A DNA stretch of 64,000 nt from Cohaesibacter sp. ES.047 (GTDB taxonomy: Bacteria; Pseudomonadota; Alphaproteobacteria; Rhizobiales; Cohaesibacteraceae), in assembly GCF_900215505.1 (NCBI RefSeq), contig NZ_LT907844.1, positions 2,080,501-2,144,500 on the forward strand. The letters are read 5' to 3'. This document shows positions 3,915 through 52,361 of this stretch, one piece after another. The translations under genes were made by a program, and so were the position numbers. Every line of letters begins with the position of its first letter. Within the stretch, counting starts at the first letter, position 1. The notes beneath the pieces are model-generated. The model did not search any database. It worked only from the letters and a program-made list of their open reading frames with translations, and was not told the origin of the DNA.

Positions 3915-3918
3915 GGCC

Positions 3919-5748: not shown

Positions 5749-5750
5749 TC

Positions 5751-7661: not shown

Positions 7662-7680
7662 GTCTTATTCCTTGTTTGTG

Positions 7681-7712: not shown

Positions 7713-7741
7713 AGTACCTTTTTGAGGGTCTAATGAAGACC

Positions 7742-8731: not shown

Positions 8732-8879
8732 GATAGTCGTCCTTTTCAAGGAATAGACAGCTTCAATACACCCCCATCCGTGTCCTGTCAGCCGAACGGG
8801 AAGAGCGTCATCTTGGCTTCGGGTGCACGGGGGAGCAGGGATGTCTTGGGCGGGTCCTACTTGCTCTTTTTTCTAAGGT

Positions 8880-34172: not shown

Positions 34173-34446
34173 CCGTCCCTTGTGGTCGACAACCGCTTGA
34201 ACAGGCAGTTCGAAGTCGAGGCGGTGGAGCTTATGTCGAGTCTGGTGTTTGAAGATTTTTCAAGCAGCGGCTTTTTGTTGGGGTGATGCCATTGACGCCC
34301 TCAGTGGCGTCGGCGAGGTGAGCGAAGCTGCGAAGCTGCGAAGCTTGTGAGGTGGTCTTAGGCTGTAAATGCATAAAAGTTGTTTGTTTTTTTGTTTTGT
34401 TTGTGATTTAAGGACTTTAGGTGGTTGATCCCATACGAATTTATCT
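34173..34446. other. Non-coding remnant between IS3 and IS256
   Basis: About 270 bases with no supported gene. It contains a small tandem repeat of GCGAAGCT (three units, near 34323-34346). Its last eight bases, ATTTATCT (34439-34446), are the target copy of the IS256 insertion. Confidence 0.5.
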
Positions 34447-35763: not shown

Positions 35764-35771
35764 ATTTATCT

Positions 35772-35889
35772 TCAAAAAGTGGACAGAGGATCCGGAAAGA
35801 TTCAAAATGAATCCGATCCATCAAATCCCGGGACCGAACACCTAAATTAAACAGCCTCAGGTAAACCCAGCGCAGTTCAACCTAAAGAA
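35772..35889. other. Short remnant between IS256 and glycosyltransferase gene
   Basis: No gene or clear structure; AT-rich. The 3' end of the minus-strand polysaccharide operon lies here, without an obvious terminator. Confidence 0.4.
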
Positions 35890-36807: not shown

Positions 36808-36875
36808 ATTTTTACGATATCAGATGAAACAATATTTTCGAGTTGTTATCCAGAATTCGAACCAACATTAAAATT

Positions 36876-37742
36876 CTACTGAGTGATTAGCATCCGCAAA
36901 TAAGTACCATAATCGCCCCTGCCTGCATTTTCGGCGAGTTTGGCTAGATCGTCAGCGTTAATAAAGCCCTTGGTGAAGGCGATTTCTTCCGGGCAGGCGA
37001 TCTTGAAACCCTGTCGTTTTTCAAGCGTGCGGACGAACAGGCCGGCTTCGAGAAGGCTTTCCGGCGTGCCCGTATCCAGCCATGCATAGCCGCGCCCCAT
37101 GATGGAGACGTTCAGCTTGCCGCGGTCGAGATAGATCTGGTTGACGTCGGTGATTTCATATTCGCCGCGCTTCGATGGCTTCAGGTCGGCGACGATATCG
37201 ACGACCGCGCTGTCGTAGAAATAAAGTCCGGTAACGGCCCAGTTGGATTTCGGCCTAGCGGGTTTTTCCTCAATCGAAATCGCCTTCATACTGGTATCGA
37301 AATCGACGACGCCGTAACGCTCTGGATCGTGGACGCGATAAGCAAAGACGGTCGCGCCATCGGTGATTGCCTTTGCGTCATCGAGAAGCTCGGGCAGGCC
37401 GTGGCCGTAATAAATGTTGTCACCAAGGATCAGGCAGGAGGGCGAGCCCCCCACGAAATCCGCCCCGATCATATAGGCTTGCGCTAGACCGTCCGGGCTT
37501 GGCTGTTCGGCATAGGTGAGCGAAAGCCCCCATTGCGCGCCGTCTCCCAGAAGCTTCTGGAAGAGCGGCATATCATGCGGCGTGGAAATGATCAGGATTT
37601 CGCGGATATCCGCCAGCATCAAAACGCTAAGCGGGTAATAGATCATCGGCTTGTCATAAATCGGGATGATCTGCTTGCTGATCACAAGCGTCATCGGGTG
37701 GAGGCGCGTGCCACTACCGCCTGCGAGAATGATGCCCTTCAT
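36876..37742 (-). CDS. rfbA: Glucose-1-phosphate thymidylyltransferase RfbA
   Basis: First step of dTDP-L-rhamnose synthesis. 288 residues, family length. The N-terminus [17 protein letters not shown] is the nucleotide-binding loop; [34 protein letters not shown] and [22 protein letters not shown] are hallmark RmlA blocks. It overlaps rfbD by four bases (ATGA). Confidence 0.95.
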
Positions 37743-38638
37743 GATGCTCCTCCAGTGTCGCTGATCAGCGCGCGAACAACCTCGCGCGTCGATGCCTGCC
37801 AGTTTGGCATGCGGATACCGAATTCCGCCTCAAGCTTTCCGCAATCAAGCCGCGAATTGGCAGGCCGCTTGGCAGGGGTCGGATAATCCGCGGTGGTGAT
37901 CGCCGTCACCATCACGCGCTTGCCCGTCTCATCGTAAAGCGCGTCGAAGATTTCCGCTGCAAAGTCGGCCCAGCTCGTCTCACCATGGCCGCTCATATGG
38001 AATATGCCGCGCAATCCTTGCGATGAATTGGCAAGCATCTGCCGCGCGGCGGAAACCAGCGCTTCTGCAATATCCCGCGCGGAGGTGGGGCAGCCGAACT
38101 GATCGCCAACCACGCCCACGCTGTCGCGCGTTTCTGCAAGCCGTAGCATGGTCTTCACGAAATTCTTGCCATAGGGCGAATAGACCCAGGCGGTTCGAAA
38201 GATTGCATGATTGTCCGTTGCCCGCGCCACGGCCTCTTCGCCGTCCAGTTTCGAGCGGCCGTAAATGGTGGCAGGCCCGGTTGGATCGCTTTCGATATAG
38301 GCGCGGTTAAGCGTGCCATCGAAGACATAATCGGTCGAAAGGTGAAGCACCGGGATATTCAGGCTTGCTGCGGCCGCAGCCACAGCACCAGCCCCATCGC
38401 GGTTGTTGGCAAAGGCCAGATCGGGCTCGCTTTCCGCCGCATCCACCGCAGTATAGGCTGCCGCCGAAACCACCGTATCGGCCTTTGCCGCATCAATAGC
38501 TGCCCGCACGCTTTCTGCATCCGTCAGATCCATCTCGGGCCGCCCGATGGCAACCACTTCGAGATCGTCAAGGTTCAGCCCCTGCAAAGCCTGGCTCACC
38601 TGTCCATTTTTGCCCGTCACCGCAAGTCGCATGGTCAT
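37739..38638 (-). CDS. rfbD: dTDP-4-dehydrorhamnose reductase RfbD
   Basis: Last step of dTDP-L-rhamnose synthesis. About 299 residues of a short-chain dehydrogenase: [39 protein letters not shown], and the catalytic [10 protein letters not shown] placed the start at ATG 38638, which overlaps the rfbB stop (ATGA); a longer frame reaches 38701 inside rfbB. Confidence 0.94.
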
Positions 38639-39690
38639 GCCTTCTTCAACATGCCAAGCCGCTTGCCGGAATAAACACCCTTGCGCAGCGGCTCCCACCA
38701 CCAGTCATTGTCGAGATACCACTCGACCGTCTTGGCAATGCCGGTGTCGAAGGTCTCTTCGGCATTCCAGCCAAGCTCGGTTTCGAGTTTGGTGGCGTCG
38801 ATGGCATAGCGCGCATCGTGGCCGGGCCGGTCGATGACGTAAGTTATAAGCTGGCTATGTGGTTTGCTGGAGGGGCGCAGTTGATCCATGATCTCGCAAA
38901 CGCGGGTGACGACATCGATATTGCGCCGCTCATTGCGCCCGCCGACATTGTATTTCTCGCCGGGACGCCCTTTTCTCGTAACAAGCCAAAGGGCGCGCGC
39001 ATGATCCTCCACGTAAAGCCAGTCGCGAATATTCGCGCCATTGCCATAAACGGGCAGCGGTTTGCCTTCCAGTGCATTCAGAATGATGAGCGGGATGAGC
39101 TTTTCGGGGAAATGGAAGGGCCCGTAATTGTTCGAGCAATTGGAGATTACCGCCGGGAAACCGTAAGTTCGCTGCCATGCAGAGACCAGATGGTCGCTTG
39201 CCGCCTTGGATGCCGAATAAGGCGATGAGGGATCGTAAGGCGTTGTTTCTTCAAATAGCCCCTCTTCGCCAAGCGAGCCGTAAACCTCGTCGGTCGACAC
39301 ATGTAGCATGCGGAAGGCCGCCTTCTTGTCATCCTTAAGGCTGTTCCAGTATTTGCGGCCTGCCTCCAGCATGTTGAACGTGCCGTTCACATTGGTTTGC
39401 ACGAAATCGGCAGCCCCGGTGATTGAGCGGTCGACATGGCTTTCCGCTGCCAGATGCATGACATAATCCGGCTGGAAGCTTTCAAAAGCTTCGGCAATCG
39501 CTGATTCGTCGCAAATATCTGCCTGTAGAAAGCGATAGTTTGGACGCTCCGCGATCGGCTTCAGCGAGGCGAGATTGCCCGCATAGGTGAGCTTGTCGAC
39601 ATTGAGAACCTCAGCTCCGATATCGCTGACGAGGTAACGCACGAGTGCCGAGCCGATAAATCCCGCCCCGCCAGTGATGAGAACCCGCAT
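38635..39690 (-). CDS. rfbB: dTDP-glucose 4,6-dehydratase RfbB
   Basis: Second step of dTDP-L-rhamnose synthesis. 351 residues: Rossmann motif [41 protein letters not shown] and the catalytic [12 protein letters not shown]. It overlaps rfbC by one base and rfbD by four, so the four genes are one translationally coupled unit. Confidence 0.95.
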
Positions 39691-40277
39691 TAATTCGCCT
39701 CCCGCGCGTGACAGTGGAAATAGGCTGGCATATCGGCGAGCATCGGCTGCTTTTTGTCCTTGTCAGAAAGAATGCAATCAACGCTTTGCGGCCAGGATAT
39801 GCCGATCGCCGGATCGTTCCAGCGCAGTCCGCGATCGTTTTCCGCGCTATATGGTGCCGTGACCTTATAAGCGATCATCGTGTCGGGTTTAAGCGTCATG
39901 AAACCGTGCGCCATGCCGGGCGGGACCCATAATTGCTGGCCGTTTTCCGCCGAAAGCTCAACGCCAACCCACTGACCAAACGTTGGCGAGCCATGCCGGA
40001 TATCAACCGCGACATCGAAAAGCGCGCCCTTGATGCAGCGCACCAGCTTGCCTTGCGCAAACGGATCAAGCTGAAAATGCAGCCCCCGCATCGTGCCGAC
40101 ATCGGCGGACAGCGATTCATTGTCCTGCACGAAAGTTACATCGGCAACATTCTCCCGAAACCAGCCATCCTTGAAGACCTCGCAGAAATACCCTCGGTGA
40201 TCGCCATGGTGCACCGGCGAAATAGAAACGAGGCCCGGAATTTTGGTAGGCGTGACGTGCAAAGAGTGACCTCTCAT
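39690..40277 (-). CDS. rfbC: dTDP-4-dehydrorhamnose 3,5-epimerase RfbC
   Basis: Third step of dTDP-L-rhamnose synthesis. 195 residues of the RmlC cupin: [33 protein letters not shown] with the catalytic His, [12 protein letters not shown]. First gene of the rfbCBDA-glycosyltransferase operon. Composition is GC-rich like the backbone, unlike the plus-strand half of the locus, so the two halves likely have different origins. Confidence 0.95.
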
Positions 40278-40387
40278 CGCTTAACAATTGGAACATGTAA
40301 ATTTTGCATATTGTGTCTTTGTGATAACCGAAAATTCCGGTGTGACAAATAGATTAATTATATTGCTTCATTTTACTCGCCACTATC

Positions 40388-40546
40388 ATCAGGCAATCCG
40401 ACCTGAAACGCGCAAAATCGGAAGGCAAAACCCTCGGTGTCCCCGCAACGCTCAGCAAAAAATAGAAGCAGGATGTGCGAGACGAGCTCGCAAAGGGCAT
40501 GAGTGCTTCGGCAATCGCCAGGAAATTTGTCACTATTTGCCACTAG
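40388..40546 (+). pseudogene. Serine recombinase (resolvase/invertase) C-terminal relic
   Basis: The frame reads SDLKRAKSEGKTLGVPATLSKK, an in-frame TAG, then KQDVRDELAKGMSASAIARKF. This is the linker and DNA-binding helix-turn-helix of a Hin/Tn3-resolvase-type enzyme (compare the usual LKRAKAEGKTLGRP pattern). The catalytic domain is absent. It lies in the 750-base gap between the two divergent polysaccharide operons. Confidence 0.65.
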
Positions 40547-41023
40547 TAGGCAGACCATCATGCGGGTTCGCGGAAATAAATCTTGTTCTGACCCCTTATA
40601 AGGTACTATCCAACTCTATCGCTTCAAAACATCTTTCACATTTTGAAATTTCTTCAGCGCGTGCAGACCTTCCAAAATGCCGATGTAAGCACTGAGATTG
40701 TCCGGATCGACAGAAATGCACCGATTAAATTTATCAAGTGCCTCTTCTTGGTGGTTCTGCCCCAGAGCCTCCCACCCTAAAAACAAGAGCTCAGTTTGAC
40801 CGTCCGCCAGACCAGTCGAGTCGTGCCTTGAAGTCAATTTTCTAAATGCCACTTCAGCCCTTCCGGCAAACATTCTAACCTTCTTAGCATTGGCAATCCT
40901 ACTCCCTTACTTTCGAACAAAGCGAAAATCGACCGACCCAAACCCCATCTAAATATTGTATTGTCTTTGAAAGATGCTAGTAGTACGTCCGGCATTTGGC
41001 TGTCAAATAAATAGGGGGATAAG
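40547..41023. promoter_or_regulatory. Gap before the right-hand operon
   Basis: Contains the small TPR-like frame below and presumably the promoter of the plus-strand operon. No terminator or operator recognised. Confidence 0.35.
40616..40873 (-). CDS. TPR-like 85-residue fragment
   Basis: A short ORF whose second half looks like one and a half tetratricopeptide repeats (ELLFLGWEALGQNHQEEALDKFNRCISVDPDNLSAYIGILEGLHALKKF). Proteins in such loci often carry TPR tails, so this may be the stranded end of a larger glycosyltransferase gene; the frame is closed by a stop not far upstream. Expression is uncertain. Confidence 0.45.
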   Translation of the reverse strand: MFAGRAEVAFRKLTSRHDSTGLADGQTELLFLGWEALGQNHQEEALDKFNRCISVDPDNLSAYIGILEGLHALKKFQNVKDVLKR

Positions 41024-41779
41024 ATGCTCAATATTGTTATACCAATGGCTGGCGCGGGAAGCCGGTTCGCGGCAGCCGGGTACAAACTGCCCAAACCACT
41101 TATCGAAGTGCAAGGCGTCCCAATGATCAAGCTGGTCATCAAAAACCTGCGCACGACCACGCCACATCGCTTTGTGTTCATCTGTCAGCAGGAGCACCTG
41201 GAAAAGTTTGACTTGGCTGCAAAACTTGAAAAATGGGCACCAGGCTGCGAGATTGTTGCGGTCAAGGGCTTAACTGAAGGCGCGGCCTGTACGGTCTTGG
41301 CGGCGAAAAGCTTCATCAATAACGCCGATCCGTTGATGATCGCCAATTCGGACCAATATGTCGATGTCAAGATCGACGATTACGTCGGCGCTATGGCGGA
41401 AGGGAATTTGGACGGCTTGATAATGACAATGAAGGCCGACGATCCAAAGTGGTCTTTTGTTGGTTTCGATGCGGCAGGGAATGTCAACTGTGTCGTCGAG
41501 AAACAGGTCATTTCCGACGAAGCGACCGTTGGGATTTACAACTTCAAGCATGGCTGCGACTTCGTGTCGGCCGCTGAGGAAATGATTGAAGCAGATCTGC
41601 GCGTAAACGGCGAATTTTATGTCGCGCCTGCGTATAATTTGCTGATCGCAAAGTCGGAAAAAATCGGCGTCTATAATATCGGGTCTGAGGCCGATGGGAT
41701 GTATGGGCTTGGCATTCCGGCTGATTTGAACTTGTTTTTGGAACTTCCTCTTTCAAAGAAAATTGCAGTACAAGAATGA
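41024..41779 (+). CDS. Nucleotidyltransferase (sugar- or phospho-compound-activating)
   Basis: A 251-residue GT-A-fold nucleotidyltransferase. Active-site features are intact: IVIPMAGAGSRF with the Arg, LPKPLIEVQGVPMI with the Lys, and MIANSDQYVDV with the metal-binding Asp. The EGAACTVLAAKSFINNADPLMIANSDQ pattern recalls capsule nucleotidyltransferases such as Campylobacter Cj1416, which activates a phospho-amino-acid with CTP; that comparison is from memory. First gene of a 12-gene operon, with GGGGATA before the ATG. It probably makes an NDP-linked donor of an unusual substituent; substrate unknown. Confidence 0.75.
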   Translation: MLNIVIPMAGAGSRFAAAGYKLPKPLIEVQGVPMIKLVIKNLRTTTPHRFVFICQQEHLEKFDLAAKLEKWAPGCEIVAVKGLTEGAACTVLAAKSFINNADPLMIANSDQYVDVKIDDYVGAMAEGNLDGLIMTMKADDPKWSFVGFDAAGNVNCVVEKQVISDEATVGIYNFKHGCDFVSAAEEMIEADLRVNGEFYVAPAYNLLIAKSEKIGVYNIGSEADGMYGLGIPADLNLFLELPLSKKIAVQE

Positions 41780-42387
41780 AGATTATTTCCCACCGCGGTT
41801 ATTGGAAAGAGCCTCTGGAAAAGAACAGGGATGTGGCCTTTAACCGTTCTTTCTCTCTGGAGTTCGGCACCGAAACAGACGTTCGTGACCGCAAAGGCCA
41901 ATTAGCGGTCGCGCATGATCCAGCAACTGCGTATGACATGAGCTTGCCCTCACTTTTGGCGATGGCTCCCAAACACTTGCTCTTGGCTTTGAACATCAAA
42001 GCCGACGGATTGGCGGGGCTCCTGAAGGAACAACTGGAGGCAGCAAATATTACGGAGTATTTCGTCTTCGACATGGCCGTCCCTGATATGCGGGATTACT
42101 TTCGTCTCGAAATGCCAGTATATACGCGCCTCAGTGAGGTCGAAAAAGTACCCGCTTATCTCGACCAAGCAACCGGCATTTGGCTAGATAGTTTTGGAGC
42201 GGAATGGTACGGCGAAGCCGAGCTTGAGGAATTGTTGAAGCTTGGCAAACCAATTTGTGTAGTTTCCGCAGATCTGCACAGGCGTTCAAACCACGCTCAA
42301 TGGCGCCTACTTGCCAAATTCAACCATTGGAAAAACATCACCCTTTGCACCGATTTTCCGGAACAAGCGCGCGAGTATTTCACATGA
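41776..42387 (+). CDS. Glycerophosphodiester phosphodiesterase-like protein
   Basis: A 203-residue PI-PLC-like TIM-barrel protein. The catalytic signature of GDPD enzymes is present: ISHRGYW (His-Arg), GTETDVRDRKGQLAVAHDP (Glu-x-Asp and second His). It is shorter than typical GDPDs (about 240 residues or more) and has no signal peptide, so it is cytoplasmic. It overlaps the preceding nucleotidyltransferase by ATGA. It may release or transfer a glycerophosphoryl-type group for the glycan decoration; this is inference from position. Confidence 0.7.
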   Translation: MKIISHRGYWKEPLEKNRDVAFNRSFSLEFGTETDVRDRKGQLAVAHDPATAYDMSLPSLLAMAPKHLLLALNIKADGLAGLLKEQLEAANITEYFVFDMAVPDMRDYFRLEMPVYTRLSEVEKVPAYLDQATGIWLDSFGAEWYGEAELEELLKLGKPICVVSADLHRRSNHAQWRLLAKFNHWKNITLCTDFPEQAREYFT

Positions 42388-43022
42388 GAATCAAAGCCAT
42401 AATTTTCGATATGGATGGCGTTCTAATCGAGGCCAAGGATTGGCACTATGAAGCACTTAACCGAGCGCTTCTGTTGTTTGGATATGAAATAAGCCGTTTT
42501 GATCATCTGACAACATATGACGGATTGCCGACGCGCAAGAAATTGGAGATGCTCAGCGCTGAACGCAACCTGCCGCGGTCTTTGCACAGCTTCATCAATG
42601 AAATGAAGCAGATTTACACAACGGAGATCATTCACCAACGCTGTCGCCCTCTCTTTGTTCATGAATACGCGTTGTCCACACTCAAGGCGAAAGGCTACAA
42701 GCTTGGTCTTGCCAGTAATTCAATTCGAAGCACAATTGAGTTGATGATGGAAAAGGCTAGCCTGAAACAATATCTTGACGTGATCCGCTCCAATGAGGAT
42801 GTCACGGAAGGCAAACCCAATCCCGCAATTTACACCAGTGCTATCGAGGCGTTGAACCTCATGCCGGAAGAGTGCTTGGTCGTCGAAGACAACGAGAATG
42901 GAATACGTGCTGCGCGTGCGGCCGGTGCGCATGTCCTTGTTGTTCATGAAGTCACTGACGTTACATTGGACAGGATCACCAACTTTATAGAACATGCTGA
43001 AGGGAAGGCTGTATCCTTATGA
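42384..43022 (+). CDS. HAD-family phosphatase / phosphomutase-like hydrolase
   Basis: A 212-residue HAD protein of the beta-phosphoglucomutase-like branch: motif I IIFDMDGVLIEAKDWHYEAL, motif II LGLASNS, motif III lysine in TEGKPNPAIY and motif IV CLVVEDNENGIRAARAAG. The start at ATG 42384 overlaps the preceding stop (ATGA). It probably dephosphorylates or isomerises a phosphorylated precursor in the same pathway as the flanking nucleotidyltransferases. Confidence 0.82.
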   Translation: MRIKAIIFDMDGVLIEAKDWHYEALNRALLLFGYEISRFDHLTTYDGLPTRKKLEMLSAERNLPRSLHSFINEMKQIYTTEIIHQRCRPLFVHEYALSTLKAKGYKLGLASNSIRSTIELMMEKASLKQYLDVIRSNEDVTEGKPNPAIYTSAIEALNLMPEECLVVEDNENGIRAARAAGAHVLVVHEVTDVTLDRITNFIEHAEGKAVSL

Positions 43023-43741
43023 ACGTATTGCTTTTAGCGGCTGGAGAAGCCGCCGACCACGATTCATATCCCCTCTGCCTAAGTGAGTTTGATGGCGAGC
43101 CCCTAATCGCGAAACAACTTAGTGCTTGCGCCGGTCTGGAAGCTGAAAAAATAATTGTGGCGATGCCCAAAACGGACGTCGAAAAATTTCACCTTGATAA
43201 TGTTGTTAGATTGCTGGAACCGAAAAGCGTAGTTGTCAAAATTGAAAATCCGACCAGCGGTGCAGCTTGCACTGCTTTACTTGCCGCTGGCTTCATCGAC
43301 AACGATAAGGAATTGCTGATCATAAACGCAAATGAGTTGATTGATGTCAATTTCGCGGACATTGTTGGTGGGTTTCGAGAACGCTCCCTTGCTGCAGGCG
43401 TTCTGACCTTCAAATCTGTCCACCCGCGATATTCCTATGTGAAGCTGGACGATAGCGGCTTTGTCATGGAAGCTGCTGAAAAGCGCCCCATCAGCCAAAA
43501 CGCCACCGTTGGCTTTTACTGGTATCGACACGGGCATGACTTCGTAAACGCCGCAAAAAATATGATTCGTAAAGGGGCAAGCGTTCAGGGTGGATTCTAT
43601 ATTTGCCCCGTGTTCAACGAATTCATACTAGAGCAAAAGCAGGTAGGCTCATCCGTTTTGGATATTAAAAAATATCATCCCCTCAAATCCGAACGGGAAA
43701 TCGATCGCTACGAAGCTGTATCTCAGAGGAGCAATACCTAG
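43019..43741 (+). CDS. Degenerate nucleotidyltransferase paralogue
   Basis: A 240-residue protein that aligns end to end with the nucleotidyltransferase at 41024 (TSGAACTALLAAGFIDNDKELLIINANELIDV against EGAACTVLAAKSFINNADPLMIANSDQYVDV), but key residues are gone. The GAGSRF loop is AAGEAADHDS, the PKPL lysine region is PLCLSEFDGEPL, and the metal-binding Asp of NSDQ is replaced in NANE. It is therefore likely inactive as an enzyme and could be a regulatory partner or bind a different ligand. ATGA overlap with the HAD gene. Confidence 0.65.
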   Translation: MNVLLLAAGEAADHDSYPLCLSEFDGEPLIAKQLSACAGLEAEKIIVAMPKTDVEKFHLDNVVRLLEPKSVVVKIENPTSGAACTALLAAGFIDNDKELLIINANELIDVNFADIVGGFRERSLAAGVLTFKSVHPRYSYVKLDDSGFVMEAAEKRPISQNATVGFYWYRHGHDFVNAAKNMIRKGASVQGGFYICPVFNEFILEQKQVGSSVLDIKKYHPLKSEREIDRYEAVSQRSNT

Positions 43742-44073
43742 TGAAAACAATGCGTTTGGAAGATATGGTAAAAGGCTGGTTTGTTGGTAATTTTAAACCA
43801 GCCGCCTATCAAACCACTGACTGCGAAGTTGCAGTCAAGACTTATCGCAAAGGCGATAAGGAGAAAGAACACTATCATAAAATGGCTACGGAAATCACAT
43901 TGATTTTAAATGGCCGGGTGCGTATGTGTGATGCCGAATGGGGCGATGGAGACATATTAGTCCTCGAGCCAAGGGACGCAACCTCATTTGAGGCGCTGAC
44001 AGACGTAACTACTGTGGTTGTGAAACACCCCGGTGCCAACGACGACAAGTATTTGGGAAGGCCTGAAGGTTGA
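43741..44073 (+). CDS. Small cupin-domain protein
   Basis: A 110-residue single-domain cupin: GDKEKEHYHKMATEITLILNGRVRM (motif 1 with two His and a Glu) and GDILVLEPRDATSFEAL (motif 2). Starts with GTG overlapping the previous stop by one base, with GAGGAG upstream; ATG at 43750 is an alternative. Isomerase, epimerase or sensor functions are all possible. Its fixed place between the paralogous nucleotidyltransferase and a methyltransferase suggests that it works on the same intermediate. Confidence 0.7.
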   Translation: MKTMRLEDMVKGWFVGNFKPAAYQTTDCEVAVKTYRKGDKEKEHYHKMATEITLILNGRVRMCDAEWGDGDILVLEPRDATSFEALTDVTTVVVKHPGANDDKYLGRPEG

Positions 44074-44912
44074 AGAACATTATCAAAACACCCTACAGTT
44101 TGCGGTTTGATCCAGCAAGGCTTACTCAAGCGATAGATTGGCATGGGCACTTGGCATTTGCTGCTTGGTTAATTGAAACGTTACGCCCCCACATACTTGT
44201 AGAACTTGGTGTTTTTCGCGGAGACAGCTTCGCGGCGTTCGCTCAAGCTGTCAGGGAGCAGGATGTTGATTGCAAATTGTTTGGGGTGGACACGTGGCAA
44301 GGTGATGCGACCACCGGAACCTATGACGATGTCTATCCTGAGTTAAAGGATTACTTTGATATTCATCACCCGAGTGCACGCCTAATGCGGATGCTGTTTG
44401 ATTCAGCTATTAGTGAGTTTGCCGATGGTAGCATTGACCTTTTGCACGTCGATGGTTGCCACGAATACGCAGCTGTGAAGCAAGACTACGAAATGTGGAA
44501 GCCAAAAATTTCTGACCGCGGTGTTATACTCTTTCATGATATTGAAGTATTGGCTGATGGCTTTGGAGTATATCAGTATTGGCGTGAAGTCAGGGATCAG
44601 TACCCAAGTTTCAGCTTTAAGCACGGCAATGGGCTTGGCATACTCCTGGTCGGGAAGGATGTCCCCGAGGAATTGTTGATATTAAGCAGGGATGCCGTCG
44701 AATGCGAGAAATTCAAGGCGATACATGAAGCCCTTGGGGGGCGTTTCTTCTACCGAGCCAAGGCCAAGTACTGGCAAACAGAGCACAAGAATCTCGGATC
44801 GAGACTTTGCAACGCCCAGCTTGAGATTGAGCGTTTAAATGATACCCACGCTCCTGCAGTCCAAATGGGTCAGCCTAGCTGGACTAGACGTCTGATAGAC
44901 AAAATCACTTAG
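44070..44912 (+). CDS. SAM-dependent methyltransferase (class I)
   Basis: A 280-residue protein with a Methyltransf_24-like core: ILVELGVFRGDSFAAFAQAV (SAM-binding motif I), KLFGVDTWQGD, and SIDLLHVDGCHEYAAVKQDYEMW, then GVILFHDIEVLADGFGV. This branch is common in polysaccharide clusters and methylates sugars or phosphates. A C-terminal helix may be coiled coil (YWQTEHKNLGSRLCNAQLEIERLN). The start appears to be TTG at 44070 in a TTGA overlap with the cupin stop. Confidence 0.75.
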   Translation: MKNIIKTPYSLRFDPARLTQAIDWHGHLAFAAWLIETLRPHILVELGVFRGDSFAAFAQAVREQDVDCKLFGVDTWQGDATTGTYDDVYPELKDYFDIHHPSARLMRMLFDSAISEFADGSIDLLHVDGCHEYAAVKQDYEMWKPKISDRGVILFHDIEVLADGFGVYQYWREVRDQYPSFSFKHGNGLGILLVGKDVPEELLILSRDAVECEKFKAIHEALGGRFFYRAKAKYWQTEHKNLGSRLCNAQLEIERLNDTHAPAVQMGQPSWTRRLIDKIT

Positions 44913-44949
44913 CACTTTTGGTGACAGGAACTGGTTAGCGGATAGTCAA

Positions 44950-45708
44950 ATGAAAAGTATTTCTAATATTGGATCAAACATATTCCGGTTGGCCGTGTTT
45001 GAGATACGCAAGCGCTCTCTAAATACGTTCATTGGCGTGATGTGGAGCGTCGCTGCGCCGTTGATGCAGATGTTGATCATCTGGTTCGTGATGGAGTTCG
45101 TGTTCAAAAGCACCCAACCGCATAAGTTTTTGTGGCTGGTCAGCGGCATTGGGACGTGGATAGTAATTTCGGCTTCAATTACTAAAACTTGCAACAGTCT
45201 TGTCGGTCGGCGGGCCCTTATTCAGCACAACAATGTTGACTTCAAAGGGCTTATTATGGCTGATATCTTAGGGGAGCTGTTTTTGTTGCTTCCTTTTTTT
45301 GGTTTGGCCATAGTAGGCTTGCTGGCTTCGGGGACAGTAAGTCTCAGCCTTCTTCTTATTCCGTATATGCTTGTTGTGCTTGTATCATTCATATATGGCC
45401 TCGGCTTGGTATTAGCAGTGCTAACTCCCTTCTTGCGGGACATTCCCTATCTTGTTGGATTGGCACTTCAGGTTTTGTTCTGGTTGACCCCTATTGCATA
45501 TGCAAAATCGATGATCGACGACAGGGTGCGCCTGATTATAGAGCTTAATCCGCTCACCTATTACGTCCAACTATCACAGAAGATCTTTCTAGGCGATCTA
45601 TTCACAATGGTGGATTTGGTCTTGCCTGCTGTTCTCTCGCTAGCATTCGTTGTTGTTGGCACTTTCGTGTACAACGCCTTTGCGAGAAAAGTTGTTATCT
45701 ATCTTTGA
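44950..45708 (+). CDS. Polysaccharide ABC exporter permease (Wzm/KpsM type)
   Basis: A 252-residue ABC-2 permease with six predicted membrane helices; NTFIGVMWSVAAPLMQMLIIWFVMEFVFKS and the LQVLFWLTPIAYAKSMIDDR loop are typical of Wzm/KpsM/TagG. It pairs with the next gene's ATPase to export a lipid-linked glycan across the inner membrane. Its presence, with no Wzy/Wzx seen, implies an ABC-transporter-dependent pathway. Confidence 0.87.
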   Translation: MKSISNIGSNIFRLAVFEIRKRSLNTFIGVMWSVAAPLMQMLIIWFVMEFVFKSTQPHKFLWLVSGIGTWIVISASITKTCNSLVGRRALIQHNNVDFKGLIMADILGELFLLLPFFGLAIVGLLASGTVSLSLLLIPYMLVVLVSFIYGLGLVLAVLTPFLRDIPYLVGLALQVLFWLTPIAYAKSMIDDRVRLIIELNPLTYYVQLSQKIFLGDLFTMVDLVLPAVLSLAFVVVGTFVYNAFARKVVIYL

Positions 45709-46481
45709 TCTGTCCGCAAGAGTGCAGAAATACTGACAAATTGGGATTGCATGTGGAAGAAAATTTAACAGTAGAAATTTCAAATGTTGAACTCTCCGTT
45801 TCGGTTGGTAGCCGGCCAAGCTCACTGAAGAGTCTTCTGGTGAATCGTAAACATCCAACCGTTCGCAAGTTGATATTGAATGTGCCGCATTTTATCGCGC
45901 GGGAGGGGGATCGCATTTGTGTAATTGGTAAAAACGGCAATGGTAAAACCACTTTTATGAAGGTGCTTGCGGGCATTTTCACCCCAACCCGAGGACAGGT
46001 TTGGACGCGCAGTAAACCAACGGCGGTTCTTGCCGCTGGTATCGGAATGGAAGACGAGTTGACAGTTGAGGAAAACATCGATGTCTCGCTTCTCTTGCGG
46101 AATCTTACTTCTGGTCAAATCCGCGAACTCAAAAGGGGAATTTTGGAATTTTGCGAATTGACAACAGATGCCAATAAACAATTCAAGCACCTCTCTACTG
46201 GTTACAGGAGCCGGCTCGCGTTCGCGACCGCGATATGCGAGACTCCACGTATATTATTGCTGGATGAAGTGCTCGGAGGTGGCGATGAGTTTTTCATGAA
46301 AAAGGCGAATTCTAAGTTACATGAAACCATTGCGGTGTCTCAAACCGCATTTATCGCGACGCACGGACCTGACGAGTTCGATGGTGTTTGCAATCGCGTA
46401 CTTGTCATAGAGGAAGGCCGCATTACCTTTGACGGGGAATTTTCAAAAGGTGTAGATTTCTACCGCAAGAGCAATTCTTGA
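45705..46481 (+). CDS. Polysaccharide ABC exporter ATPase (Wzt/KpsT type)
   Basis: An ATPase of about 245-258 residues: Walker A IGKNGNGKTTFMKVLAG, signature FKHLSTGYRSRLAFATAI, Walker B ILLLDEVLGGGD. It ends soon after the D- and H-loops (FIATHGPDEF) and lacks the extra C-terminal glycan-binding domain found in many O-antigen Wzt proteins, so it resembles KpsT/TagH-core types. The start could be the TTG at 45705 (TTGA overlap with the permease) or GTG 45750; homology begins after both. Confidence 0.85.
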   Translation: MICPQECRNTDKLGLHVEENLTVEISNVELSVSVGSRPSSLKSLLVNRKHPTVRKLILNVPHFIAREGDRICVIGKNGNGKTTFMKVLAGIFTPTRGQVWTRSKPTAVLAAGIGMEDELTVEENIDVSLLLRNLTSGQIRELKRGILEFCELTTDANKQFKHLSTGYRSRLAFATAICETPRILLLDEVLGGGDEFFMKKANSKLHETIAVSQTAFIATHGPDEFDGVCNRVLVIEEGRITFDGEFSKGVDFYRKSNS

Positions 46482-46512
46482 TTTGCGCTAGGCTACACAA
46501 GAGAACAGAAAA

Positions 46513-47808
46513 ATGGCAATATCGGTTCTAATTTGTGGTTTGGTTCGTGAACAGAATCGGCTCACAAGAAAGCTTACGCACTACGTTAATTGGCGTAATT
46601 CAGGTTACGTAGATAAGATAGTCTACGCCACTTGGATTGGAGAAGTTGATCGGTATAATGGGCTACGCCGCTCGTTGGAAGAGGCCGGTGTTCTGATCGT
46701 GGAGGTAGAAGAGCCCCGGCTTATCTTGAAAGGTGGGCATCAACTCCATCAGATGCTGGCTTATTACTACGGCCTGAGTGTGATCGACGATGGACAATTC
46801 GTTCTTAAGACACGTGTGGATCTTGCAGATAACACCGATGATATGATCCATGAATTCGTCAATGGCACTACTGAAGCTGATGATTTCATGGGAGTTGGCA
46901 TTGGCAATCGAATATTAATTGAAAATAGCCAAATGTTATTTCCCTTTCTAAACGGAGATGCGCAATTTTTTGGACGCAAGCGTGATTTGCAAAAGATGGT
47001 TAACTTGTCGGCTGAAATGGAACTTGTTTACAACAGGCTTGCTGTGGAGCAGACATTTTTCTTTGAGCCTTTCAAAGAAAGTAAAGTGTTTCAGGAGCAC
47101 TTCTACTGGAATCTTCCACATATTAGCGAAATCGCGAATGAGCGCTCCGAGCAGGTTCTATATATTTTGAACAACAAACAGATTGCGCGAGCTATCAAGG
47201 GTTGGTGGTTGGTTCTCGACGCCTATTTCAAGGTGGGGTGGGGGCCGGAACGTGATTTTTCCGGTAGCCCGTTTCGCTCCATAGAAGAAGCAATCGAGCA
47301 CAATGGAAGTGACAAGTTTCTCGGAACAGAAAAGAGCGATGTAATTGCGCATGATTCCTTTGTCAAAGAACTAATTAAGGTACTTCCGTCAGACGAGATA
47401 GCTGCGCTCAAAAAAGACCTTGCAGTGAGTTCCTCTGGACGCCCGCTCGAAGTGTCTTCGGATGTCTATGATTGTTATGAGGAATTCCGGAAGAAATTCA
47501 GCGGGCTCCCAGAAGCAAAATCTAGCAAGGTTGACAACTTTCCAGTGTCTATTTCCGGTGCACCACAGCACTTTTTTGTTAAAGACGGGATCGATAGTGC
47601 GACGACACGTTACCATGAGCAGATCACGCACCTAAGACGCGAAAACGACTACTTGAAAAAGCAGTTGAATATTACGCTGACGCCTAGCTCATTGCATCGT
47701 TGGATCAGCAGAGTGCTTTCTCCCAGATTGGTACTTTTCCTGCGCTATCGCTTTCCGCGCCTAACGTCTTTCTATGTACGCTATTTCATGCGTAAACAGG
47801 CAAAATAA
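46513..47808 (+). CDS. WavE-like polysaccharide biosynthesis protein
   Basis: A 431-residue cytoplasmic protein. The first 280 residues resemble the WavE lipopolysaccharide-synthesis family: ISVLICGLVREQNRLTRKL, IVYATWIGEVDRY, FVLKTRVDLADN and NGDAQFFGRKRDL, a fold thought to be a GT-A-like glycosyltransferase. The C-terminal part contains a helix-rich stretch (YHEQITHLRRENDYLKKQLN, likely coiled coil) and a basic end. Exact activity unknown. A related protein is encoded two genes downstream. Confidence 0.65.
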   Translation: MAISVLICGLVREQNRLTRKLTHYVNWRNSGYVDKIVYATWIGEVDRYNGLRRSLEEAGVLIVEVEEPRLILKGGHQLHQMLAYYYGLSVIDDGQFVLKTRVDLADNTDDMIHEFVNGTTEADDFMGVGIGNRILIENSQMLFPFLNGDAQFFGRKRDLQKMVNLSAEMELVYNRLAVEQTFFFEPFKESKVFQEHFYWNLPHISEIANERSEQVLYILNNKQIARAIKGWWLVLDAYFKVGWGPERDFSGSPFRSIEEAIEHNGSDKFLGTEKSDVIAHDSFVKELIKVLPSDEIAALKKDLAVSSSGRPLEVSSDVYDCYEEFRKKFSGLPEAKSSKVDNFPVSISGAPQHFFVKDGIDSATTRYHEQITHLRRENDYLKKQLNITLTPSSLHRWISRVLSPRLVLFLRYRFPRLTSFYVRYFMRKQAK

Positions 47809-48854
47809 TGGTAAGAATAGAACTTCAGAATTACCTCGAACTCGTTCAATTGAAGACTGAATTGTTTAGAACCCAGGCGAAATTGGAGTGGACGCGAAAT
47901 TTTCCGTTTCGGTCATTTGTTCGTGCCCAATTGCTTCCTATATTACCGCGACTTCAAGAATACAGGCTATACCGGCTGGCAATGCGTATTGAGGCTCAGA
48001 AGCCAACAGAATCTCAGATATCTCCAAGTGATATTATAGTTTCTCAATCCACTGAAGACGAACGTATATATTCTGTGGATGTGCCGGCCTATTTAGACGG
48101 TTCGTGCGGCGGTAAGGACGAATTTGCGCGGCTTTCTGAAAATTTTAAAGTTGCAGCTCGACGGCCTCATCTGTTAATAATACATGGATTCTATGAAGAA
48201 GAAGCAAAAATTATATTTGAAAAAGCAAAGAATTTGCGCGATACAGACGTTGTATTGACAACGCCGAATGAAAATATTTGCAATTACTTCATTTCTCACG
48301 TTCCTTGTGCAATTGCCTGTTTTGTTGTTCCCAATGTTGGTCGTGACATTTTTCCTTTTTTGCTTGCTTTACGCAACCTGGATATAGACCATTATAAAAC
48401 GTTCATCAAACTTCATACGAAGCGTTCTCTCCATGTTGCAGATGCTGGTGCCTGGTTTCTCGTAAATCTTCTGTCGTTCATCGGTAGCAACGAGGTAACG
48501 AAACAGCTTTATGAATTGGCTGATCAGAATGTTACTTCGCTGTACGGATTAGAAACGTTCAAGATTACAGATCACTATATAAATAACCAACCTTGGCTTT
48601 CGTGGCTCATAGGATCTGATTACAGCTCAAGCGACGTAAAGTTCATACCCGGTAGTATGTTTTTAGGAACTGGCTTTTTTTTGAGATCAGTTGCGAGCCG
48701 AGAATTGTGGCGTTATCGCTTTGATGGTGAGAATGGGCAGCTTGATGGGACGCTTGCACATGCCATGGAGCGTTACTTTGGCGTTATAGCAGAAGAGGGT
48801 GGCGGCTCTTGTGAAACATTAATGGAGCTGATTGCGGCTAAGGATGAACGATGA
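47808..48854 (+). CDS. Rhamnan-synthesis-F-like glycosyltransferase
   Basis: A 348-residue protein; residues about 118-345 resemble the RgpF domain of rhamnan synthesis: LLIIHGFYEEEAKIIFEKA, CFVVPNVGRDIFPFLLALRNLD, FIKLHTKRSLH and PGSMFLGTGFFLRSV. RgpF-type proteins make rhamnose polymers in streptococci, which fits the dTDP-rhamnose genes nearby. Starts in a TAATG overlap and ends in an ATGA overlap, so it is coupled to both neighbours. Confidence 0.75.
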   Translation: MVRIELQNYLELVQLKTELFRTQAKLEWTRNFPFRSFVRAQLLPILPRLQEYRLYRLAMRIEAQKPTESQISPSDIIVSQSTEDERIYSVDVPAYLDGSCGGKDEFARLSENFKVAARRPHLLIIHGFYEEEAKIIFEKAKNLRDTDVVLTTPNENICNYFISHVPCAIACFVVPNVGRDIFPFLLALRNLDIDHYKTFIKLHTKRSLHVADAGAWFLVNLLSFIGSNEVTKQLYELADQNVTSLYGLETFKITDHYINNQPWLSWLIGSDYSSSDVKFIPGSMFLGTGFFLRSVASRELWRYRFDGENGQLDGTLAHAMERYFGVIAEEGGGSCETLMELIAAKDER

Positions 48855-50488
48855 AAAGAACAATCCTTCTAAATGGGGCAATTCGAGATGTTGAAGAGTT
48901 TGTTCTGATTGCTGATTCGATACTGCATAAAAGAGAGCAAGTCGACGCGGACATTTCCGTTGTTATTTCGACATGGCACGAAGACATCGCAGCCAATACC
49001 GAAATTTTTAGGTGGCTTGCCAGCGAAGGTGCTGCAATTATAGGCTCTCCAAACATTCAAGAGGGTGGCCCTGCGAACATATACCGGCAATGGAGGACCC
49101 TGAATGCGGGGCTTAACGCCTGTGACGATGATGCTCTGATATTGAAGGGGCGTACGGATAAATTTCTGCTGCGCAAGGATGTTCTAAGCGCATTTATAAG
49201 CAGAGAATTCAACGAAGAGCCTTATCAGAGGATGATATCGGAAAACCGGTTGGCTGTCGAACATCTTTCGTTGAGCTTGCCGTTTATGGCCAAAGATATG
49301 ATCTATCTCGGCGGCATGAAGGCACTTAGAAATGTTACCCATTTTTCGCTTAGAACACGCTATGTCGCCGACCACATATTTAACGGAATTGGTCCCGAAT
49401 GCTTCTTATGGCTGGAGTATGCGCGAAGCGATTCAAATCTTCTTCGTCTGGTCGAGAAACTCGATTTTCGTCAGATTTCGGTCCACATGCTGCAATACGG
49501 CAGTGTATTCGACTATAAGTTTGATGAAGTCCCTCCACATATAGGATATCTGTACAAGCGTTGGGTTGAGACATTTGATAAGGAATTCCTCTTTTTGAGC
49601 GATGTTTTAAAATGCGGCTTCGCTCCGTCGTGGCTGGTTGACGAAGGCAGCTGGCGTTATCTGATTGGTGATCGGCCGGAATACGAAAAGCTCAAAAATG
49701 CTCTTAAAGCAATACCACCGATGATCGAAAATCCAATACCGAGCACTTCGTATTTGAACTCGGCTTCGGCACATCGCTTTGAAGACGCGGAAATAGTGGC
49801 TCCTCAGTATCCATTTCCTCTGCAAATTGAACAAATCCGCAACAGCAACAAGCGGGAATACTCCGATATTGTACTGTTGCGCCAATCGATCATAAAGGAA
49901 GAGATCGAAAAGGACGAACCTAATGAGGCTCGTCTGAGGAAAGCACTTTACTGGAATATAAGACAGCGCGACAGGGGAACCTTGGAACAATCCTACCTCT
50001 GGCTTATGGAGGGCAAGCCTCAAAAGCGCTATATGAGCACTGCTGACCAGATTTTTGTATTGGAGCGAATGATAGACTTTTTTACGTTCCAGCAAGATTT
50101 TGACAATATAGGCAAGACAATTGACAATTTTTTGCCCCTCATCAAAAAGGATCCCAAGCTTACGGTCAGATTGGGTGAGCACTATTTCAGAAACGACAAG
50201 AAATACAAAGCTCTTTATTGGTTTCTACGCGCTTATATGCATAACAAGACAGATTTAGGGGTCGCACATGGACTAGGCTGCACTCTTCTTGATTTACGCT
50301 TCCCCAAACTAGCAATCTATTTTCTGGAAAAAGCCCATAAAATAAGCCCTAATGACCAGACGGCTGCATTTACGCTTTTGCGTGCATATCACGCCACCGG
50401 GAAACAGCAGGAAGCCATGAAAATACTCGATATATTGAGTAACAATTTGCGGCTGGAAGCGGAAAGGATTCTAAATGTTCGCGACTAG
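48851..50488 (+). CDS. WavE-like protein with C-terminal TPR region
   Basis: A 545-residue protein. The N-terminal 270 residues look WavE-like (TILLNGAIRDVEEFVLIADSIL, ISVVISTWHED, ALILKGRTDKFLLRKD) and the C-terminal 150 residues form TPR-type helix pairs (FRNDKKYKALYWFLRAYMHN, LDLRFPKLAIYFLEKAHKISPNDQTAAFTLLRAYHATGKQQEAMKIL). It may be a glycosyltransferase held in a complex by its TPRs. The small TPR fragment at 40616 resembles this tail in type but is not a copy. Confidence 0.65.
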   Translation: MKRTILLNGAIRDVEEFVLIADSILHKREQVDADISVVISTWHEDIAANTEIFRWLASEGAAIIGSPNIQEGGPANIYRQWRTLNAGLNACDDDALILKGRTDKFLLRKDVLSAFISREFNEEPYQRMISENRLAVEHLSLSLPFMAKDMIYLGGMKALRNVTHFSLRTRYVADHIFNGIGPECFLWLEYARSDSNLLRLVEKLDFRQISVHMLQYGSVFDYKFDEVPPHIGYLYKRWVETFDKEFLFLSDVLKCGFAPSWLVDEGSWRYLIGDRPEYEKLKNALKAIPPMIENPIPSTSYLNSASAHRFEDAEIVAPQYPFPLQIEQIRNSNKREYSDIVLLRQSIIKEEIEKDEPNEARLRKALYWNIRQRDRGTLEQSYLWLMEGKPQKRYMSTADQIFVLERMIDFFTFQQDFDNIGKTIDNFLPLIKKDPKLTVRLGEHYFRNDKKYKALYWFLRAYMHNKTDLGVAHGLGCTLLDLRFPKLAIYFLEKAHKISPNDQTAAFTLLRAYHATGKQQEAMKILDILSNNLRLEAERILNVRD

Positions 50489-51887
50489 GAAACAAAGGCA
50501 AAGGCGACACGAGCAGTTGGCTCAAGCACATTGTTTATCGCCGATGTTCGACCGGCCACTCGTTGAGTTCAAGAACGAAATCGACCGCCTAAAATCTGGC
50601 ACAAATAGAATAATAAACTTCGACGAAGATTTTTACTGCAATGCATATCCTGATATAAAAAAAGCCGTCGAACGCGGTGAATTTGAATGCGGCTATATGC
50701 ATTACTTGCTATTTGGTCAGCATGAAGTTCGCGTCACCAGCACGATCGATTTCAGAAAACGGTTTGGAATAGCGCCAAGTTACCCCTCAACCAGCTCTCT
50801 ATTTTATCCTATAAATGCTCATGCTCCACGTCACTACGAAACAAACCTCATGAGGCTGCCGCAGCCCGACAAACGTGAACTGACGATTTTTATTCCCTAT
50901 TTAGATGCCTCCCTTTTCTATGCAGGTTACTCAATCTTTTTCAAAGACATCGCAAAAATCTTCGGCGATTTTGAAAAAATCAACGTCCTTGTACTGGAGA
51001 GTGCGCGCAATCCTGAATTGCTTACAGAATTTGGGAGCCAGCTGAATATACTTCATTATCGGGAAGCTTTGAAGATAACCCACGCCCCCACAATGGCAAT
51101 TTGTTTCGACACGGAGACATTTTTCATGGCACTGGAAATGTTGGGGGGGGATGCATCAAAAATAGTCTACTACTGTCAAGATTATGAAGCAGGATTTTTT
51201 CCATTCGGAACCCAGTATATAAGGTGCGAGAAGGCACTTCTAAAATCAGAAAACATAATTATTTCAACGCCTTTTTTGCGAGATTTTCTTGAAAGGCAGG
51301 GGCTTCTCAACGCAAAGCGCATATATGTTAAATCCCCTGAGATATCTCCATTTCCAGTGAAAATGGAGAAATCAAAAAAGATATTTTGCTATTTTCGCCC
51401 GGAGTTTTTCAATTCCAGAAATCTTCCAGAAATCATTTTGGAGGCAATTAATGCTTTTTCAGCAAGACACAATGGATATGAATTCTATCTAGTAGGTACG
51501 GTTGAAGTGTCTTATTCCTTTGAGGCAAATGGTTCTAAAGTATATGTACTAAACAAACTTCCAAAAGATGAGTATATAAATTTGATCGGGAGCTGCGATG
51601 CCGTTGTTTCAATGATTTATTCTGCACACCCAGGCGTTATTGCTTGGCAATCCGCCGCCTCCGGTATTCCAACCGTGACAAATTGTTTTTTACAGCGTGA
51701 CAAAGACACTATAGAAAAAATCTCCAAGAACATCGTAGTTTATGATCCTCATCGCGATGAACTTGCGGATAAAATGGAATTGGCGTTGCAAATGGATAAG
51801 GGGGATGCCGATTTTAATCGAGAATTTTACGAAAATAAAGAGCCTAAAGATATTCGATCGTTCTTGTTGGACATTACTTCGGAGTAA
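50475..51887 (+). CDS. GT-B glycosyltransferase, WsaF-like (rhamnosyltransferase)
   Basis: A 470-residue GT-B enzyme. Residues 50-90 contain a small domain often fused to surface glycan enzymes (FDEDFYCNAYPDIKKAVERGEFECGYMHYLLFGQHEVR). The rest resembles WsaF, a beta-1,2-rhamnosyltransferase of S-layer glycans: YYCQDYEAGFFPFGTQY, IIISTPFLRDFL, FCYFRPEFFNSRNLPEII and the donor-site block YSAHPGVIAWQSAASGIPTVTN. The start overlaps the preceding gene by 14 bases. It ends the operon. Confidence 0.78.
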   Translation: MFATRKQRQRRHEQLAQAHCLSPMFDRPLVEFKNEIDRLKSGTNRIINFDEDFYCNAYPDIKKAVERGEFECGYMHYLLFGQHEVRVTSTIDFRKRFGIAPSYPSTSSLFYPINAHAPRHYETNLMRLPQPDKRELTIFIPYLDASLFYAGYSIFFKDIAKIFGDFEKINVLVLESARNPELLTEFGSQLNILHYREALKITHAPTMAICFDTETFFMALEMLGGDASKIVYYCQDYEAGFFPFGTQYIRCEKALLKSENIIISTPFLRDFLERQGLLNAKRIYVKSPEISPFPVKMEKSKKIFCYFRPEFFNSRNLPEIILEAINAFSARHNGYEFYLVGTVEVSYSFEANGSKVYVLNKLPKDEYINLIGSCDAVVSMIYSAHPGVIAWQSAASGIPTVTNCFLQRDKDTIEKISKNIVVYDPHRDELADKMELALQMDKGDADFNREFYENKEPKDIRSFLLDITSE

Positions 51888-52019
51888 TCCTCCTCACGAA
51901 TAAGGAACTTCAAAAGTCTATAAGACATAACAATATGTTGCCGAGCGTCGGAACATAACCTTGATGTTTGCAATTGTGACCTATGTTTCTGAACTGGCGA
52001 TAGCAGCCTTCCAGTCCTT
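51888..52019. other. End of polysaccharide locus
   Basis: About 130 bases after the last gene, without a clear terminator, up to the left end of an IS3 element. Confidence 0.4.
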
Positions 52020-52270
52020 TGTATTGACCCATTGAAATTCTGCTCATGCTATAGGTAAGGAAAATAGTGATGAGTACGACTATGGACGATAAGATCAAAC
52101 GCTGGACAGCGAAGCGGAAATCGGCATTGGTTATTGAGATCATTCAGGGCAAGACGACGGTATCAGAAGCAAGCCGCTCTTTTGATCTGTCGCCCTCCGA
52201 GATTGAGGGATGGGTTGAAGACGCCAAGCGAGGGTTGGAGAATAGCCTGCGTGCCAATCCCCTCGACATT
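52020..52270 (+). pseudogene. IS3-family element, left-hand part (OrfA N-terminus)
   Basis: Starts with the end TGTATTGACCCATTG, complementary to the right end at 34160-34172. It encodes the OrfA helix-turn-helix beginning at about 52067-52076 (KRWTAKRKSALVIEIIQG, EASRSFDLSPSEIEGWVEDAKRG, ANPLDI) and is cut by the IS630 end at 52271. Only about 65 of roughly 90 OrfA residues remain. Confidence 0.8.
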
Positions 52271-52361
52271 ATACCAAGGGCGTGAAGTTCTGACTCTTTA
52301 GGGATTCCATTTTTAGCACTGGCGTGATTCAACATGGCAAAGGAGATTTTGCCATGTCTGC
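52271..52361 (+). mobile_element. IS630-family element, copy 3 (91-base end fragment)
   Basis: Begins ATACCAAGGGCGTG, the same end as the right terminus of copy 1, in opposite orientation, and runs to the orfA start codon ATGTCTGC, where IS256 copy 2 begins. The remaining kilobase is gone, so this is a stump left by insertion plus deletion. Confidence 0.85.

Follow-up and report, generated by a model that had tools for sequence, protein, structure and literature searches.

Which product is made by a set of genes that fits no standard sugar-nucleotide pathway is the question raised by a twelve-gene operon of Cohaesibacter sp. ES.047, found on contig NZ_LT907844.1 (assembly GCF_900215505.1) within a stretch of 64,000 nucleotides (positions 2,080,501 to 2,144,500), hereafter the window. 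The first five genes, here called the cassette, encode a nucleotidyltransferase (NTA), a protein similar to glycerophosphodiester phosphodiesterases (GDPD), a HAD enzyme, a second nucleotidyltransferase-like protein (NTB) and a cupin. A first-pass annotation of the DNA had proposed that they build a nucleoside diphosphate (NDP)-activated phospho-substituent, which is methylated and placed on an exported rhamnose glycan. Of that interpretation, the recurrent unit, the dead NTB and the undescribed character of the gene set are retained, while the phospho-substituent is less supported and methylation is no part of the conserved cassette; the suspicion of a real, uncharacterised pathway holds up. 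That the cassette is self-contained and horizontally mobile and serves to produce a single unusual sugar, nucleotide-activated, for glycans of the cell surface is a proposal for which we see an even balance; the alternatives weighed below partly overlap, and their probabilities do not add up to one.

Recurrence of the cassette

A tblastn search of 72,556 plasmid records gave 28 matches for NTB and 26 for the GDPD-like protein, the last few distant, and 12 of the 13 plasmid loci read carried the block, complete or partial, the other being an Escherichia coli plasmid with a different module. The GDPD alignment, used to scan 84,980 species genomes, brought up 437 relatives; the 80 best were examined and, with the 12 plasmid loci and the window, make up the survey, some loci sharing one genome (e.g., L046 and L109). 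In all, 94 sources were searched with profiles derived from the window and the plasmid copies; the E. coli plasmid (L040), whose GDPD is distant, was dropped, leaving 93 loci, and neighbour clusters were counted in 86 of the 94 sources, seven being without a GDPD after gene calling and L040 scoring too low.

All five genes lie within 6 kb on one strand in 73 of the 93 loci. Among the well-flanked loci (at least 3.5 kb on both sides, n = 73), 63 hold all five genes and 69 hold HAD, NTA and NTB, and no core gene was found on the opposite strand across the surveyed loci. The gene orders are NTA-GDPD-HAD-NTB-cupin (54 loci), GDPD-HAD-NTB-cupin-NTA (16) and GDPD-HAD-(NTB-NTA fused)-NTC (6), in which NTC is a third paralogue. 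The block turns up in other records, chiefly in these three orders, and so is not due to chance; the recurring unit is a direct observation. The first-pass annotation had taken recurrence with varied glycosyltransferases as the mark of a pathway and confinement to this genome as its refutation; the five genes are in fact a recurrent unit accompanied by varied glycosyltransferases, in many other genomes and plasmids. From the record titles, the hosts are presumably Pseudomonadota, Campylobacterota, cyanobacteria, Bacteroidota, Myxococcota, Planctomycetota and others, many of the genomes being metagenome-assembled, so that the odd phyla may be due to contamination. The cassette is an accessory trait: across the phylum the cupin profile matches 2 of 398 genomes, one of them the source genome, and within the genus only the source genome (1 of 18).

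Homologues of all twelve window genes occur in Vibrio sonorensis (L048; 33-65% identical), with the methyltransferase relocated to the far end, and in a 22.7-kb IMG/VR record (L148, L149; 34-68% identical), with the methyltransferase upstream; this record, whose viral nature is doubtful, is the only one confirmed of 40 pattern matches for the GDPD among viral contigs. In the 93 other loci (L033-L125), counting only single tblastn alignments over half of the query, the genes for the 431-amino-acid, RgpF-like, 545-amino-acid and WsaF-like proteins each have a half-length homologue in one locus, L048 only. The same holds for the methyltransferase, which has a further homologue in L148 and is thus no part of the conserved cassette; other annotated methyltransferases are present in two loci. 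A plasmid search with the 431-amino-acid protein gave no match. The cassette is constant while the surrounding transferases vary.

Two other features of the flanks were recorded. A family of about 591 amino acids, with GT2-like matches that are at most sub-threshold, directly follows the cupin in many loci (e.g., L033:13013-14788; 22 of 86 loci). In Rhizobium sp. K1/93 (L039:1490-11487) a fused-type cassette comes after genes annotated as FGGY kinase, glycerol-3-phosphate dehydrogenase, TIM barrel, triose-phosphate isomerase and RpiB, from which a single hypothetical gene separates it; we take these catabolic genes to resemble those for erythritol.

Intact and degenerate nucleotidyltransferases and their phage relatives

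Sugar-1-phosphate nucleotidyltransferases are characterized by a GxGxR...KP loop, a metal-binding Asp and an EK substrate motif. When NTA and NTB are aligned jointly, the four residues G12, R14, K24 and D110 occur together in 85 of 86 NTA copies and in 0 of 85 NTB copies, so that the intact and the degenerate paralogue are directly visible and NTB is indeed inactive-looking, as first supposed. E159-K160 is found in all 86 NTA copies. In NTB the loop pair G12 and R14 is absent throughout (0/85), K24 is kept in 29 and D110 in 38 of the 85, and the EK motif is present in 78, together with TxG..C and HPRxS motifs; in NTC, from the fused-type loci, the loop pair occurs in 0 of 6 copies and the Asp and the EK motif in all six. 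Judged by these residues, NTB is a dead paralogue conserved beside a live NTA, whose assignment as a nucleotidyltransferase is well supported by its motifs. NTA shares the catalytic loop, the metal Asp and the EK motif with RmlA/GlmU-type enzymes, and its best NCBIfam models are rmlA_long and Arch_glmU; unlike them, it is paired with a degenerate paralogue and scores far under the cut-offs (48-54 bits against 292-320). Its closest solved sequence, 4evw (E 1e-14), carries no more specific label than nucleoside-diphosphate-sugar pyrophosphorylase. Why an intact enzyme is conserved beside a degenerate one is a question about pseudoenzymes that can be tested directly.

PHROGs profiles match all five cassette proteins, the families being given as unknown function or generic HAD hydrolase, and NTA matches 19 of 50,697 phage records. 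At the 11 best of these (47.7-51% identity, all Synechococcus phages) a HAD gene lies directly upstream, in the same frame by coordinates, and in all five phages read (S-CAM9, S-8S53, S-PRM1, B23 and DSL-LC03) HAD and NTA are in one open reading frame (ORF) of 457-461 amino acids, which establishes the fusion by direct observation. Short GDPD-like ORFs lie near the fusions in B23 (18.5 bits) and DSL-LC03 (12.4 bits, annotated so by the depositors); the search of the phage collection with the GDPD gave no match. Phage Bellamy (L152:5992-7149) encodes a fusion of a distant NTA relative with an RpiB/LacA/LacB isomerase (102 bits against a cut-off of 88.3), followed by a cupin of the cassette's family (91.6 bits); this cupin is also present in phage SynMITS9220M01. 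These fusions suggest consecutive steps on sugar phosphates and, with the predicted GT-A fold of the partner family WavE, point to an NDP-sugar used by a glycosyltransferase, which makes a phospho-substituent the less supported product. The cyanophage HAD-NTA proteins are, moreover, ready-made fusion enzymes that would simplify first assays.

A proposed route from sugar phosphate to activated sugar

The HAD enzyme is nearest to the beta-phosphoglucomutase/YqaB subfamily, with which it shares the domain type and the DxDGV motif, but it falls below the cut-offs of the named members listed: the best NCBIfam score is 119 bits for TIGR02009 (cut-off 153), and beta-phosphoglucomutase TIGR01990 is not reached (91.6 bits, cut-off 189.4). 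A mechanism similar to that of beta-phosphoglucomutase is possible. The HAD would supply the sugar-1-phosphate of NTA, because the two are fused in phages, because of its subfamily and because the cassette contains no recognised kinase.

Alternatively, the HAD may be a phosphatase that leaves a 1-phosphate from a sugar bisphosphate made by an unlinked kinase, with activation by NTA, perhaps as in a BcbEFG-like module; kinase, phosphatase and nucleotidyltransferase follow one another in this way in the heptose route. This alternative, possible though doubtful, draws on a parallel module linked to WavE. Of the four genomes of the phylum with PF07507, three lack a cupin match, and in these WavE has a nucleotidyltransferase of the same family no more than a few kb away; the enzyme is full-length in L145 and L147, whereas L146 has a partial one (L145:5834-10411, L147:3948-9993, L146:5982-7117). 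In L145 and L147 it stands beside an EcbF-BcbF phosphatase (TIGR01689, cut-off 162; 228.5 and 172.9 bits, respectively) and a protein of 513-527 amino acids whose C-terminal part is weakly kinase-like (PF02958 over cut-off in L147, PF01636 under cut-off in both). This BcbEFG-type module is the nearest relative of the cassette, sharing the nucleotidyltransferase family of NTA (hhalign probability 99.8, E 2e-30), a HAD enzyme, a nearby WavE and a second part that looks like a degenerate nucleotidyltransferase (two sequences only, hhalign probability 26, E 7e-4); it differs in that a kinase-like domain and a small EcbF-BcbF HAD replace the beta-phosphoglucomutase-like HAD, the GDPD and the cupin. 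The window HAD is not of the EcbF-BcbF type, its best NCBIfam score being to another model. Bellamy, too, has a small HAD next to its NTA-RpiB fusion, along with a PfkB-like protein that stays under the cut-off at 23 bits. Against this alternative, neither an APH-type nor any other kinase family was found in the 12 window proteins (Pfam, E 0.1), the ten neighbour proteins scanned contained none, and the sole kinase-like member, by eye, of the 45 commonest neighbour clusters (86 loci) resembles adenylylsulfate kinase and occurs in 3 loci.

Further gene groups with this nucleotidyltransferase family were seen. Cyanophage S-SKS1 (L155:6001-8733) encodes, like the parallel module, a nucleotidyltransferase of the family with a 320-amino-acid protein and a small HAD, which comes closest to EcbF-BcbF but at 93 bits is under the cut-off of 162. 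A third module, with a double nucleotidyltransferase of the family and a class II aldolase, is present in the E. coli plasmid (L040:5238-14200), S-SM2 (L154:6004-9312) and Bellamy (L152:8217-11519), accompanied in the plasmid by a GDPD, a uridine-kinase-like protein and a HAD and in Bellamy by a GT61 protein.

The GDPD-like protein is predicted by AlphaFold2 to form a GDPD TIM barrel (mean predicted local distance difference test, pLDDT, 96.2), and its best structural match is 2pz0, the GDPD of T. tengcongensis (Z 20.7, root-mean-square deviation 2.2, 191 residues aligned). H6, E33, D35 and H47 are present in 93 of 93 aligned copies and D48 in 95%; the model and the alignment thus place it in the GDPD superfamily, defined by a TIM barrel and a His...ExD...His-Asp site. 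With bacterial GDPDs it shares the predicted fold and the His/Glu/Asp/His core; it is unlike them in its length of only 203 amino acids, in matching no Pfam family, in its place in a glycan cassette and in an Asn at the position of the third acidic ligand of canonical GDPDs.

GDPDs normally act on glycerophosphodiesters, and some PF00483-like enzymes activate polyol phosphates or phosphocholine. The cassette could therefore make an NDP-activated non-sugar (a polyol such as glycerol, or an acid) that is attached to the glycan through a phosphate diester, in line with the phospho-substituent first proposed, with the GDPD and the HAD supplying or trimming the phosphate ester. Although the GDPD model is closest to true GDPDs, this is unlikely. 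The HAD and RpiB fusions favour sugar phosphates, the best NCBIfam models of NTA, far under cut-off as they are, belong to sugar-1-phosphate nucleotidyltransferases, and the associated WavE family has a GT-A-like model. Moreover, by Pfam the window operon is devoid of dehydrogenases, choline-type kinases and LicD-type transferases, and its 12 proteins show none of the hallmarks (kinases, LicD transferase, dehydrogenase) of the O-methyl phosphoramidate (MeOPN), LicABCD and CDP-2-glycerol pathways, as we take their gene lists to be.

For a nucleotide-activated sugar, the catalytic assignments, the sugar, the nucleotide and the order of the steps are those that we infer as follows. The cupin would isomerise a common sugar phosphate, the HAD, acting as a phosphomutase, would form the sugar-1-phosphate, and NTA would couple it to a nucleoside triphosphate, with NTB, devoid of the catalytic residues and mostly retaining the EK motif, as its partner or regulatory subunit. 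The GDPD, whose role is the least certain, might hydrolyse a phosphodiester, either releasing the starting sugar phosphate or clearing a by-product. The isomerase role of the cupin is a guess from its fold and partial ligands (H44, H46 and E51, an HxH motif and a Glu, invariant in 77 copies); against solved structures the cupin gave no match better than E 0.05. The donor would be used by a GT-A glycosyltransferase, of the WavE family in many loci and perhaps the distant WavE-like proteins in the window, where the ABC exporter would move a rhamnose-containing glycan. Such a glycan is plausible from RgpF, WsaF_C and the adjacent rml genes.

WavE-profile proteins are present in 52 of the 93 loci and PF07507 in 4 of the 398 genomes of the phylum, figures obtained by unlike measures (a home-made profile with scores above 60 bits, applied to loci that reach some 25 kb, or 64 kb for the window, against PF07507 on whole genomes), which weakens the comparison. 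The WavE protein of L096 was modelled with a mean pLDDT of 81 and a predicted GT-A-like fold; WavE searched against solved sequences gave a best match at E 0.046, to an unrelated protein. In a set of six proteins the WavE profile matches the 431- and 545-amino-acid window proteins with E of 7e-7 and 1.4e-10 (scores in Table 1), and neither reaches the PF07507 cut-off, their WavE-likeness being below Pfam level; they are weakly indicated as distant WavE-like glycosyltransferase candidates.

Several further points weigh against a self-contained sugar-donor cassette. The block is incomplete in ten of the 73 well-flanked loci, the GDPD is the only one of the five genes present in L108, and six rhizobial, Azospirillum and Tropicibacter loci contain a third nucleotidyltransferase-like protein and no cupin. 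Mirror-tree Pearson coefficients are 0.43-0.71 among the five genes and 0.45-0.76 with ABC ATPase and WavE neighbours; they do not set the five apart from these neighbours and neither support nor refute a unit. No separate NTB was found in six phage stretches scanned, among which only Bellamy has the cupin, so NTB and the cupin are not always needed. The HAD is under the cut-off of every named mutase or phosphatase model (best 25 of 49 models), and thus these two functions are not separable by such models. The cupin is weak, with no clear fourth metal ligand by eye, and no role of the GDPD is demonstrated. As for WavE, about half of the L096 model is accounted for by its fold matches (173 of 358 residues in the best, Z 13.6), and PF07507 has no match in the source genome, as in the control genomes.

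That the pathway is a known one under poor names, described for instance in a subscription journal, is improbable. The literature check, which covered open-licence papers, recognised no described pathway with this gene set, as the first-pass annotation had stated, and as search words WavE and the names of the bcb genes serve poorly. Against a known pathway, no Pfam, NCBIfam or PADLOC model is specific to any of the five (PADLOC being run without NTA), those reached naming none beyond superfamily or subfamily level, and the PHROGs families are equally uninformative. PADLOC gave no match for five operon proteins, NTA left out, and therefore no defence role is suggested. In the opposite direction, the cassette may represent an unrecognised class of pathway, in which a HAD phosphomutase beside or fused to a nucleotidyltransferase yields a beta-1-phosphate or ketose-1-phosphate, a dead nucleotidyltransferase is an obligate partner, a GDPD-fold enzyme acts on a sugar phosphodiester, the donor serves the large, as yet unassigned GT-A family WavE and cyanophages have captured the system; taken as a whole, this is a tentative reading with little likelihood. 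If the sugar-donor proposal is true, it would add an uncharacterised activated sugar to bacterial surface glycans and a likely donor for WavE-family transferases.

The operon and its surroundings

The operon consists of twelve ORFs on the same strand (Table 1), in which neighbours overlap, in order, by 4, 4, 4, 1 and 4 bases, then, after a 37-base gap, by 4 and, after a 31-base gap, by 1, 4 and 14 bases. The overlaps and domains agree with the twelve closely packed genes first described, and the operon is confirmed as real. The start of the HAD gene was set at ATG 42384, the ORF listing extending it to TTG 42255.

Table 1. Genes of the operon (window positions 41024-51887) and the adjacent rhamnose genes
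Feature	Position	Strand	Length and best evidence
NTA, sugar-1-phosphate-type nucleotidyltransferase, catalytic motifs intact	41024..41779	+	251 aa; PF00483 3.3e-12
GDPD-like phosphodiesterase (predicted model)	41776..42387	+	203 aa; no Pfam family
HAD, beta-phosphoglucomutase-like subfamily, proposed phosphomutase	42384..43022	+	212 aa; PF13419 8e-36
NTB, pseudo-nucleotidyltransferase paralogue	43019..43741	+	240 aa; PF00483 1e-8
Cupin, proposed sugar-phosphate isomerase/epimerase	43741..44073	+	110 aa; PF07883 1.3e-3, under cut-off
Methyltransferase, operon member outside the conserved cassette	44070..44912	+	PF13578
ABC-2 polysaccharide export permease	44950..45708	+	PF01061 1.5e-7
ABC polysaccharide export ATPase	45705..46481	+	PF00005 1.8e-17; galactan exporter ATPase model 122 bits, below cut-off
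Weakly WavE-like protein, glycosyltransferase candidate	46513..47808	+	431 aa; no Pfam match; WavE profile 17.2 bits
RgpF-type rhamnan synthesis protein	47808..48854	+	PF05045 3.3e-13
Protein with N-terminal WavE-like and C-terminal TPR parts	48851..50488	+	545 aa; WavE profile 29.4 bits; TPR_19 1.4e-5
WsaF-type glycosyltransferase (WsaF_C)	50475..51887	+	PF22772 3.2e-22
Divergent dTDP-rhamnose genes rmlA, rmlD, rmlB, rmlC	36876..40277	-	names from reading translations

The divergent rml genes are probably the sugar supply for the same glycan; rmlD matches PF04321 with 338 bits, tied with its own duplicate at the contig start. The operon is AT-richer than its surroundings, with a G+C content of 0.485 at 41024-44073 and 0.444 at 44070-51887, compared with about 0.54 in the left stretch of rml genes and insertion sequences (IS) and 0.55-0.56 farther out on both sides.

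The IS-to-IS island at window positions 33796-52361 has a second copy, about 99.8% identical, that spans the contig ends (G000:C1:1-10445 and 5102561-5110232; L129, L130). The join lacks about 455 bases (window 44235-44689), and gap openings, 18 in the first part and 11 in the second, introduce stops; this copy is either an IS-flanked duplication or a product of low-quality contig ends. On the minus strand at window 1985-8749, translations resemble proteins of myo-inositol catabolism, presumably encoded by iolB, iolE, iolD, iolC and iolG, followed by a sugar ABC transporter.

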